In this document: piece by piece, positions 12,947 to 58,829 of the stretch | Numbering within the stretch: position 1 is the stretch's first letter | Layout of the letters: each line of letters starts with the position of its first letter | Origin: Chelatococcus sambhunathii | GTDB lineage: Bacteria; Pseudomonadota; Alphaproteobacteria; Rhizobiales; Beijerinckiaceae | DNA: 64,000 nt | Assembly (NCBI RefSeq): GCF_001418005.1 | Contig: NZ_LIOL01000013.1 | Span: 1-64,000, forward strand | Reading direction: 5' to 3' | Made by a program: the position numbers and the translations under genes | Notes under the pieces: generated by a model | Database searches by the model: none | Seen by the model: the letters and a program-made list of their open reading frames with translations, nothing else | Told to the model about the DNA's origin: nothing

Positions 12947-13364
12947 GCTGTGTTGACAAAGTGCCTGATCCACAGGCGGATGGCGCCGATGATTGCGAAG
13001 CCGAGCTAACTGGCCGAGGCTTTGTCGTAACGGGTGGCGATCCGGCGGTCGTTCTTGAGGCGGTTGCGCAGAGCGTAGACGACGCTGTCGACCGGGAGCC
13101 GCGCGAGACGATTGCGCTTCATGGGGATGAGCGGCTCTGCCCCGCGTGCCCGCAGATCGTCGCGGATGGCATTGCTGTCGTAGCCGTTGTCGGCGATCAA
13201 CACCTTCGCTTCCGGTCCAGGCTGATCGATCATCGGGCCGAAACCCTGGGCGTCGGACGCTTCGCCGGGTGCTGGTAGGCACGCACGACGGTGCTGTCTA
13301 TCATCTGGACGCTGGCCTGACCCACGTCGCTCGTTGAGCGGGAACCCCCTTTGTCAACACAGCC
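12946..13364 (-). mobile_element. IS5-family element, internally deleted 419-bp derivative
   Basis: The unit is bounded by perfect 15-bp terminal inverted repeats, GGCTGTGTTGACAAA at 12946-12960 and its complement at 13350-13364, each flanked by TA (12944-12945 and 13365-13366), the expected target duplication. Inside are two fragments of an IS5-type transposase on the minus strand. At 419 bp it is far below the 800-1000 bp of a full element, so it cannot move by itself but could be mobilised in trans. It lies exactly at the end of the chemoreceptor gene. Confidence 0.88.
13006..13348 (-). pseudogene. IS5-family transposase remnant
   Basis: Upstream fragment (about 13230-13348): SDVGQASVQMIDSTVVRAYQHP, the segment carrying the first catalytic Asp of IS5 transposases, ending in a stop after PTPRVSAR. 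Downstream fragment (13006-13233), in another frame: LIADNGYDSNAIRDDLRARG, the second-Asp region, and IPMKRNR up to RIATRYDKASAS. Between them the middle of the protein is missing. A TAG at 13006-13008 interrupts the end; beyond it the frame reads [19 protein letters not shown] into the terminal repeat. Deletion, frameshift and nonsense change together mean it is dead. Confidence 0.88.
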
Positions 13365-55961: not shown

Positions 55962-56075
55962 CCCGCCCTCATGGACAGCGGCTTGATCGCTGTCATTTCC
56001 GTTCAACCGCCACCACCGATCCCGATCGCCCGGCCCTTTGCCGCGCGGCCAGATCGGGACGATACGAGGATCACC

Positions 56076-56342
56076 ATGGCGAACACCCCGTCGGCCAAGA
56101 AGGCGACGCGCAAGATCGCCCGCCGCACCGCCGTGAACAAGGCGCGCCGCAGCCGCATGCGCACCTTCATCCGCAAGGTCGAGGAAGCGATCGCGACGGG
56201 CAACCAGCAGGCCGCGCTCGACGCCCTGAAGAACGCTCAGCCGGAGCTGATGCGCGCCGCCCAGAAGGGTGTGCTGCACAAGAACACCGCTTCGCGCAAG
56301 GTCGCGCGCCTGACGCATCGCATCAAGGCACTGCAGGCCTGA
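56076..56342 (+). CDS. rpsT: 30S ribosomal protein S20
   Basis: An 88-residue, lysine/arginine-rich three-helix protein that binds the 5' domain of 16S r[39 protein letters not shown] is the typical start and [19 protein letters not shown] the typical end. It is monocistronic, with its own promoter and a terminator 57 bases downstream, and marks the upstream border of the dnaA region as in most Hyphomicrobiales. Confidence 0.97.
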
Positions 56343-56398
56343 GGCCACAGAGGCGGCACCCACCATGCCGCCGAGCGGGCCTGCGAACGGGTCCAAAG

Positions 56399-56429
56399 GA
56401 GCCTGGCCTTGGCCGGGCTCTTTCCTTTT
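56399..56429 (+). terminator. Rho-independent terminator of rpsT
   Basis: GAGCCTGGCC and GGCCGGGCTC pair in a 10-bp stem (one G-U pair, inner pair open to give a CTTG loop), followed by TTTCCTTTT. Located 57 bases after the rpsT stop. Confidence 0.85.
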
Positions 56430-57287
56430 GGGGCGGCGACACGGACCGTTCTGGCGGCCTGACCGGGGCACCGGCCCGGCGACTCGGCACGGCGCAGAAA
56501 CGGCGCCATCGCCGGCAGGTTTTCCGGCGTCGGACGGCTTGACAAAACGGCGTCTTGCCGGGGTGGTGCGACCGCAGCCTGGTCGCCGTGACCGCGCAGA
56601 CAAAATGCCGTGCTGACAAAACTTTAGGGGGCAAAGGGCTGCACCCGGCCCGAATCCCTCCCGCCCGAGGCGGCCCGGACGCGTCGGTCGGCCGATCGAA
56701 ACAATGCCTTCGAAGCGCCTCCACGCTTTCGGTCGCGCCTTTAAACTCGCTGGATCCACAAGGAGTTGCACGCAATTGCCCCCGCCTCGCGAGAGCCCGC
56801 CGATCGATTTGCGCGCCCCGGTATGACAACACAACCGATAGTCGTGTTGCGTCGGATCGGCCCTTGGCGTAGGGTCATCTCACCTCGCCGCCACGGCTGA
56901 GGCTCTCAATAGCAAGTCAGAAGCATTAAGCCTCATTTCGGGGGAGGGGTTCGTGTTGTCTCGAAGACAAAGCGTCGTGCCACGCAGTTGCTTCAGCTCG
57001 AACCCATTGACTCATCCCCGTGGATTGCGGAAAAGCCTGTCGATACAGGCAAGGGATCGGACAAGCGGCATAAGAACGAACGAATAAGAACTTTTCCTAC
57101 ATAGCTGGTCCGGATTCGATTGCAGCGAGAGCACCGGGGTGTCGTTGCCGCGAGATGGCGACGGCAGACGGGGTTCTTTTTGCGGAACTCAATCGTCGGT
57201 AGCGAAAAGCGTCCAGCGGCGCTGCGGGGTGACCTGCATCGCACGGGTGCTTTCTGCACCAAACAAGAAGAACGAGGAGCTGGGGCG
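56430..57287 (+). other. Long leader/intergenic region upstream of dnaA
   Basis: 858 bases without a credible gene. It contains four inverted repeats: CAACAC/GTGTTG (56827-56849), TGAGGCT/AGCCTCA (56898-56935), TTGTCT/AGACAA (56956-56970) and GCCTGT/ACAGGC (57035-57050). TTGACA-like -35 elements occur at 56539 and 57007, but without a convincing -10. Near-matches to the DnaA box are GGATCCACA (56752-56760) and the complement of CGTGGATTG (57019-57027). GANTC sites for a CcrM-type methylase are present. Regulation of dnaA, or part of the origin, is likely but not shown. Confidence 0.55.
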
Positions 57288-58829
57288 ATGTACAAAGGCG
57301 AAGAGAGCGTGATCGAAACCAAGGGTGTGGCCGCTCCGCACGGACACGTGCCCTATATCGATGACGCTCGCAGCGCCGCCGGCGGCAGCGAGGACCTGTC
57401 AGACGCCTGGGGACGCGTGCGCCGCCGGCTGCGGGCCGAACTCGGCGAGGACGTGTTCTCGAGCTGGTTCGGCCGGCTGGAGTGCGACGGTCTTGCGGCC
57501 GGGACCGCCCGCCTGTCCGTGCCGACCCGCTTCCTCAAAAGCTGGATCGAGTCGCACTACGCCGATCGCGTTCTGGCGGTCTTCAAGGCCGAGCATGCAG
57601 CGGTCAGCCGCGTCGCCTTCTTCGTCCGCGGCGCGGTGACGCGCGAAATGCCCGTGGCCGCCCGCCCGAGCGAGCCGGCCACGGCCCCCCCGCGCGCGGC
57701 CGCCCCTGTCGTGGCGCGTCCTCGCGTCGCAGACGAGGCGCGCGAGAGCACGAGCGAGAAGGCCGCGGCCCCGGATCTTGCCGACGACAGCGCCGCCAAT
57801 GCGCTCGACCCGCGCCTCACCTTCTCCACCTTCATCGTCGGCCGCTCGAACGCCCTCGCCCATGCCGCCGCCGACCGCATCGCCCGCCATGACGGCGGCG
57901 CGCCGCTCTACAATCCGCTCTATCTCCATGCCGGCGTCGGCCTCGGCAAGACGCATCTCATGCAGGCCATCGCCCATGAGGCGCAGGGCCGCGGCAAGCG
58001 CGTCATCTACCTGACGGCCGACCGTTTCATGTACGGTTTCGTGGCCTCGCTGAAGGCCCAGACGGCCCTTGCCTTCAAGGAGCGCCTGCGCGGCATCGAC
58101 ATGCTCGTCATTGACGACGTGCAATTCCTTCAGGGCAAGTCGATCCAGCAGGAATTCGGCCACACCATCAACGCCCTGCTCGATGCCGGGCGGCAGATCG
58201 TCGTGGCGGCGGACCGTCCGCCATCGGACCTCGAGGCCCTCGACGAGCGCGTGCGCTCGCGCCTCGCCGGTGGTCTCGTCGTCGAGATGTGCCCGCTCGA
58301 CGAGGAACTGCGTTCCCGCATCCTGTCGATGCGCATCGCCGCGGTGCAGGCGCTGCATCCCGCCTTCGAGGTGCCCGAGGCCGTCGTCGCCTATGTGGCC
58401 CGGGTCATCGCCACCAACGGGCGAGACCTCGACGGCGCGGTCAACCGCCTGCTCGCCCACGCGACGCTGACCGGCTCGCCCCTCACCGTCGAGACCGCCG
58501 AGGCGGCCGTGCGCGACCTGGTGCGCACCCGCGACCCCAAGCGCGTCAAGATCGAGGACATCCAGAAGCTCGTTGCCGGCCGTTACAACGTGTCGCGCGC
58601 CGACCTCCTCTCCGAGCGCCGTACGGCGGCCGTCGTCAAGCCGCGACAGATCGCCATGTACCTCTCCAAGGTGCTGACCCTGCGTTCGCTGCCCGAGATC
58701 GGCCGGCGCTTCGGCGGGCGCGACCACACCACCGTGCTGCATGCCGTGCGCAAGATCGAGAAGGCGGTGGGCGACGACCCGGCGCTGAACGAGGAGGTCG
58801 AGCTGCTCAAGCGCATGCTGCAGGAGTGA
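57288..58829 (+). CDS. dnaA: Chromosomal replication initiator protein DnaA
   Basis: AAA+ initiator that melts oriC. 513 residues. Domain I (about 35-110: [26 protein letters not shown]), a variable Ala/Pro-rich linker (domain II, 120-180), the ATPase domain III with [17 protein letters not shown], Walker [12 protein letters not shown], Walker [14 protein letters not shown], and the DNA-binding domain IV with [21 protein letters not shown] and [16 protein letters not shown]. Start ATG 57288 with GAGGAG eight bases before it; the frame is open upstream but unconserved. dnaN follows after 162 bases. Confidence 0.97.

Follow-up and report, generated by a model that had tools for sequence, protein, structure and literature searches.

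What lies in the 858 bases between rpsT and dnaA in Chelatococcus sambhunathii, and does it bear on the production of DnaA? We addressed the question in a stretch of 64,000 nucleotides (the window; positions are counted from its first letter, and all features below are on its forward strand). The upstream neighbour, rpsT, identified by translation and homologues as the gene for ribosomal protein S20, occupies positions 56076–56342 and is followed at 56405–56429 by a terminator-like hairpin with a T-rich tail, found in a consensus scan and conserved in the congeners G090 and G018, although the count of such sites in 56000–57500 (1, against a shuffle mean of 1.5) is not above that of shuffles. 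The gap that a first-pass annotation had placed after the rpsT terminator is therefore real; it runs from 56430 to the ATG of dnaA at 57288 (gene, 57288–58829), which is preceded by the Shine–Dalgarno (SD) sequence AGGAG at 57275–57279. Its size is usual for the group: of 84 entries, 78 yielded both genes (the 78 include one duplicate, L102, identical to L019), and in these the distance from rpsT to the start of the DnaA match is 462–1813 bases. When the window is aligned with G090 and G018, nearly invariant blocks alternate with poorly conserved stretches. Together, the features described below suggest, on the evidence of comparative sequence analysis, that the gap appears to hold a dnaA promoter and a long leader with a hairpin and a tiny upstream open reading frame (uORF) at nearly fixed places, a conserved anatomy that points to an undescribed tuning of DnaA production.

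The same annotation had also proposed that the gap contains an unknown regulator of dnaA, marked by four clustered inverted repeats. The proposal of a regulator gains, though in a form that the annotation did not foresee, from the conserved promoter-like site, the leader with its hairpin and ORF, and a distal box, but not from the repeats as a signal. All four are present, at 56827–56832/56844–56849, 56898–56904/56929–56935, 56947–56953/56999–57005 and 57035–57040/57045–57050. Counting perfect arms of at least 6 bases with loops of 3–60, however, the 858 bases contain 14 repeats against 14.4 in dinucleotide shuffles (sd 3.8; 58 of 100 shuffles reach 14), and the densest 225-base stretch contains 6 against 6.5 (73 of 100 reach 6), so that by count the cluster equals chance and was rejected as a signal. 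The sub-window 56827–57050, picked post hoc, is mildly rich (5 repeats against 2.0; 19 of 300 shuffles). As for conservation, the repeats 56898/56935 and 57035/57050 can both still pair in the window, G090 and G018, and each shows a single compensatory pair; for the latter, a short hairpin inside the uORF (GCCTGT-cgat-ACAGGC, 57035–57050), the compensatory pair is found in G018. This does not extend to the repeats as a class, and over the three congeners the number of pairs stays within what the shuffle control gives (227/500).

A location next to dnaA also invites the reading that the replication origin of the chromosome, or a site resembling one, lies here, and the annotation had called it origin-proximal, citing weak DnaA-box-like sites and GANTC sites. 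Four GANTC sites are indeed present, together with only one good DnaA-box-like site, GGATCCACA at 56752–56760, which is one mismatch from TGATCCACA and is conserved in G090 and G018 (as TGATCCACA itself in G018). The forms of the DnaA box that were searched for have no exact match in the gap, the window's one exact box lying outside it at 12966; these forms and the KOPS motif used in the scans are those we take to be the standard ones. Because dnaA and hemE are on separate contigs in this genome, the origin was sought in relatives (G018, G090 and G020), in sampled stretches. In G018 and G090 the two genes share a contig, about 170 kb and about 200 kb apart, respectively, and the sampled GC skew keeps the same sign on either side of dnaA; the sign changes only 80–110 kb beyond hemE. 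In G018 the skew turns positive between 550 and 560 kb, some 90 kb past hemE (469 kb), and KOPS-like octamers switch strand near 500 kb; in G090, where hemE is at 164 kb, the octamers switch near 140 kb, and the skew is first negative at 42–62 kb and weakly negative too at 600 to 780 kb, on the opposite side. The octamer switch is thus nearer to hemE than the skew change in both. In the complete genome of G020, forward octamers predominate between about 0.3 and 2.4 Mb and reverse ones between 2.7 and about 4.5 Mb, with a mixture in the remainder, which puts the terminus between 2.45 and 2.7 Mb and the opposite point near 5.2 Mb; hemE is at 5.16 Mb and dnaA at 0.68 Mb, and just one of the stretches sampled, beside hemE, contains three exact DnaA boxes. 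The skew of G020 drops at dnaA (+0.035 to -0.014), the reverse of the origin pattern, although it is too noisy to decide alone. Thus, neither a skew switch nor a cluster of DnaA boxes was found at the site in the relatives and the window, and the gap is probably not the replication origin: despite its adjoining dnaA, its one conserved DnaA-box-like site, its GANTC sites, and a skew change that falls past hemE rather than exactly there, we regard an origin here as very unlikely. In G018 and G090, dnaA is directed toward hemE; if the origin is near hemE, the gene runs against the replication fork.

The region instead has the marks of a control region for dnaA. Comparison with Camelimonas, Microvirga and others brings out a promoter-like pair, GTTGC(G/A) and TGTGTAAGGT, separated by 17–18 bases, which in the window reads TTGCGT (56847–56852) and TAGGGT (56870–56875) with 17 bases between them (56847–56875). 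A regular expression for the pair matches 38 of 78 loci. After removal of L102 (the duplicate of L019) and of four doubtful matches (L020, L077, L083 and L098), the remaining 33 leaders served to train a weight matrix, which outscored 99% of shuffles in 40 of 82 additional loci (98 fetched, themselves a subset of the genomes searched, minus 14 duplicates and 2 with short upstream sequence). Some of these loci belong to other families of the order, and the site can precede dnaA by as much as about 1 kb. A confident promoter is missing from the other 42 new loci by the weight matrix, and none of the Methylobacterium and Methylorubrum loci examined matches the expression. The sequence agrees poorly with the E. 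coli consensus, and a scan with the sigma-70 consensus returned no promoter site here; it is from the conservation of the motif that we infer its use as a promoter. In several Microvirga loci (L022, L025, L030 and L035), the sequence just upstream of the dnaA promoter contains TGTGGAC motifs in pairs, and GANTC sites as well, possibly targets of DnaA and CcrM.

Transcription from the predicted promoter would start at A56882, as judged from the -10 element, giving a 5' leader of 406 nt (56882–57287). A leader of predicted length 304–407 nt is found in 26 of the 33 training leaders, those with a callable dnaA start, the window included. Taking a promoter that gives at least 150 nt as the mark of a long leader, the window has a conserved promoter-like site 406 nt before the ATG, the start being a predicted one and the site having no E. 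coli-type consensus match. Directly at the predicted 5' end is a hairpin (CCTCGCCG / CGGC-T-GAGG, 56883–56902), the fold of which is better than expected across leaders: the mean z-score is -2.27 in the 33 training leaders (range -4.68 to -0.65) and -1.56 in the 40 new leaders, against -0.65 to +0.16 in control windows, with z at or above 0 in 10 of the 40. The hairpins vary widely in sequence (compare ACTCGGGTCACCCCGGGT, ACTTCAGCAATAGAGCTGAAGT and ACCTCGCCGCCACGGCTGAGG) while the folding stays, indicating that pairing is kept and not sequence. In two loci of another family, L119 and L121, a nearly perfect hairpin of 10 bp (TCATGAAGGG/CCCTTCATGA) follows immediately on the predicted promoter, about 875 nt ahead of the DnaA match. 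The leader of the window as a whole folds only slightly better than its shuffles (z -1.22; 13 of 100 shuffles do as well). The hairpin shifts in register, and RNAalifold returned no pairs on the gapped alignment.

After the hairpin, the predicted leader carries the start of a uORF. In the window, a strong SD sequence (GGAGG, 56943–56947) precedes a GTG that opens a frame of 44 codons ending in TAA (56953–57087), 200 nt upstream of dnaA; the stop is shared, with no indel, in G090 and G018. The succession of promoter-like site, hairpin, SD and start codon, and the distances between them, are maintained across genera. Defining a uORF as an SD-led ATG, GTG or TTG that opens a frame of 15 or more codons, we find a start 74–84 nt past the -10 element in 28 of the 33 training leaders, against a mean of 1.0 and a maximum of 5 in 200 rounds of shuffling, whereas other positions in these leaders are nearly empty of SD-led starts. 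With one leader per genus-like group the figure is 10 of 13 (shuffle mean 0.36, maximum 2). The five training leaders that miss the start are L045 (CTG), L088, L089, L092 and L069. The pattern was first seen in the training set and then tested on the new leaders with the interval fixed at 74–84: 17 of 40 have a start there, against 3 in positions 20–73 and 2 in positions 85–160, both flanks being wider than the interval (54 positions upstream and 76 downstream), and 23 have none. Two of the 17 positive loci are from other families; the 17 represent 12 genera, some of which are also in the training set, and hence not all are independent.

When the two sets are pooled, with related species treated as independent, 47 of 73 leaders have a start, which is TTG in 27, GTG in 18 and ATG in only 2. 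The frame is open for at least 15 codons in 44 of the 47 (44 rather than 28 + 17 = 45, as only the first start in the interval was considered), against 68% and 64% for the other two frames, and is 20–28 codons long in 35 of the 47. The window therefore shows what a putative leader ORF calls for, an SD-led start followed by an open frame, at a position in the predicted leader that is conserved. Possibly, however, the near absence of ATG speaks against a real start. The SD-plus-NTG element could then be an untranslated RNA site for an RNA-binding protein or for a base-pairing sRNA, for example one with a CU-rich loop of the EcpR1 type; the nucleotides right after the start are also alike (GTTGTYTC), and the peptide is not. 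EcpR1 is a candidate because in Sinorhizobium meliloti it represses dnaA at its ribosome-binding site (RBS), with the RBS and start codon as sufficient sites according to the portion of the report consulted (PMC4414408), and because the sRNA (RF02500, 78.8 bits) is also encoded in the present genome, next to rpmG (L183:1245–1351, contig C2). Its predicted pairing with the leader of the window is, however, not above chance, since 33 of 60 (SL1) and 58 of 60 (SL2) shuffled leaders pair as well, and was rejected; the RBS of dnaA is among the better SL1 sites, yet does not exceed chance either. Moreover, the first base varies as that of start codons does (T, G or A before TG), and the frame that follows stays open in 44 of the 47. 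An RNA site of this kind is accordingly the less expected reading, and we consider it unlikely.

If the uORF is translated, as we infer from its SD, start and frame, is it the peptide that matters? A functional small peptide, acting in trans or by stalling as a nascent chain, would find some support in Microvirga, where ten 22-codon peptides, chosen from 17 loci for equal length, are alike (MFHS.KKQAKAHPLPRGRLDRP) and show modest selection, with a pN/pS of 0.53 (0.33–0.95). Elsewhere the sequences differ freely between genera, and among the window, G090 and G018 no selection on the peptide was seen: pN/pS is 0.81 (0.51–1.57), codon position 2 is the most variable and frame +2 is also open. In the sister loci L185 and L186, whose promoters are below threshold, the peptides look, by eye, frame-shifted, and the three uORF peptides tried, that of the window among them, have no Pfam or NCBIfam match. 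A role for the peptide itself is thus improbable. With so little selection on amino acids, and with sister loci that look frame-shifted, the most economical view is that translating the uORF matters more than its product.

How might translation of the uORF reach dnaA? Attenuators of the trpL type place a short ORF close to the start of the message, before the regulated gene. The likeness to the window, a short 5' ORF ahead of a gene to be regulated, extends to S. meliloti peTrpL as described in the part of the study consulted (PMC10117765), but the window differs in having neither an intrinsic terminator, nor a conserved alternative pairing, nor a run of regulatory codons (none was seen by eye in the uORF), and in its weak start and variable peptide. 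Across the 26 leaders with a called dnaA start (the analyses of SD partners, terminators and EcpR1 omit the other seven of the 33), the dnaA SD has no consistent pairing partner and no conserved switch was found. Pairing of the uORF with this SD, seen in the minimum-energy fold of the window, was dropped because the partners differ even between congeners. A four-segment alternating fold noticed by eye in Chelatococcus (CCTC / GAGG / CCTC / GAGG) was likewise set aside, as it was not seen in Microvirga and is not significant with three sequences.

Early termination in the leader could, alternatively, release a separate 5'-derived sRNA, in the manner of UpsM of the Rhodobacter sphaeroides dcw cluster, with which the window shares a very long leader before an essential gene (division genes in the case of UpsM), to judge from the portion of that work consulted (PMC5089854). 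The strong 5' hairpin would suit such an RNA, as would a second hairpin between uORF and dnaA (GTCGTTGCC / GGCGACGGC, 57141–57165), which is strong in the window, G090 and G018, the three compared, with its register shifted in G018; in S. meliloti, moreover, a dnaA 5'-UTR fragment rises upon overproduction of EcpR1, as stated in the part of the paper seen (PMC4414408). In contrast to UpsM, which is an sRNA, the leader of the window has no intrinsic terminator in our scan, nor do 25 of the 26 leaders scanned, the sole match, in L019, being its 5' hairpin. The gap also has no Rfam match at E values up to 1; weak matches to mir-598 and CcsR1, below their gathering scores, are outside it and were taken as chance. 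We give this possibility little weight.

We therefore return to the reading in which uORF translation acts in cis on dnaA expression, which we hold to be somewhat the more probable account of this control region. Transcripts begun at the promoter at 56847–56875 would carry dnaA behind a leader of some 406 nt, the 5' hairpin would protect their end, and ribosomes engaged on the uORF would occupy the leader and, by shielding against RNase E or Rho, decide whether the message downstream stays intact and is translated. Since the start of the uORF is weak, dnaA output would follow the translation-initiation capacity of the cell.

Transcription may be subject to a further control. Upstream of the promoter, a block with conserved spacing (56594–56656) consists of GCGCAGACAAAA, CAAAACTTTA, the distal box TTAGGGGGCAAAG (56624–56636) and GAATC (56652–56656), the one GANTC of the gap that has an equivalent beside the box in relatives. 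The box, as TTAGNNGGCAAAG with small variants, is found 204–228 bases upstream of the -35 element in 34 of 73 loci, and in 33 of these 34 a GANTC follows it within 45 nt. A conserved GANTC in the promoter region would be the mark of a dnaA promoter under CcrM and GcrA; the one beside the box is about 200 nt away from the -35. It is surrounded by CGC(G/A)CA, an A-rich stretch, CAR-N4-TTA and GGAATC, whose distances from one another hardly vary; CAAAACTTTA, or CAR-N4-TTA, resembles what we take to be the IHF consensus. Each of four Chelatococcus genomes, that of the window among them, has a single exact copy of the box, always before dnaA; the pattern read backwards matches 1, 1, 4 and 1 times in the four, so that chance would account for about one match in a genome, and the significance of the box is in its place. 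Probably, the box and GANTC, about 220 nt upstream of the -35, add a transcriptional, cell-cycle-linked control of dnaA.

Long leaders before dnaA in other Alphaproteobacteria, and translational control of DnaA in Caulobacter, support the reading of the gap as a site of leader control. The Caulobacter crescentus leader is 155 nt long, structured and inhibitory to translation, according to the parts of the literature consulted (PMC8443254; PMC4489657; PMC4117421), and nutrient control of DnaA, at first ascribed to it, has since been traced to the nascent chain of the N terminus (PMC4489657; PMC8443254; PMC4117421). The likeness to the window is a long, structured leader, here predicted, in an alphaproteobacterium; the Caulobacter leader lowers translation and DnaA synthesis there is controlled post-transcriptionally, as may be the case here. 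There are also differences. The predicted leader of the window is about 2.6 times longer; the passages of these papers that describe the Caulobacter leader mention no uORF, only a toeprint at an upstream CUG in frame with dnaA that is unused in vivo; and, by the same passages, Caulobacter dnaA is without a clear SD, whereas the window has a clear SD before dnaA and an SD-led uORF. In S. meliloti, the dnaA 5' UTR is also long, its function being called unknown in 2015 in the portion of the report consulted (PMC4414408), and EcpR1 (RF02500) is common to both organisms. The excerpts concerned mention no uORF and have EcpR1 acting at the RBS and start of dnaA, whereas no significant pairing with EcpR1 is predicted for the window. 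A study of small proteins in S. meliloti describes uORFs before dnaE1 and rpoD, with 'dnaA' absent from its main text as far as this was available (PMC10117765). Among the matches listed in the open-licence literature, we found no paper on a bacterial dnaA uORF and no earlier description of this anatomy of the dnaA control region.

How the supply of DnaA follows growth is an old open question. In tentative terms, and with more doubt than confidence, we propose that Hyphomicrobiales control their replication initiator through a conserved, non-AUG leader ORF acting in cis, together with a 5' hairpin and a distal box specific to dnaA, so that translation-initiation capacity would be read on the dnaA message itself before replication starts. 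The distal box, with its exact match only before dnaA in the four Chelatococcus genomes, would offer a second handle, on transcription; and a uORF whose start is fixed while its peptide drifts provides a concrete target in the alphaproteobacterial dnaA leader.
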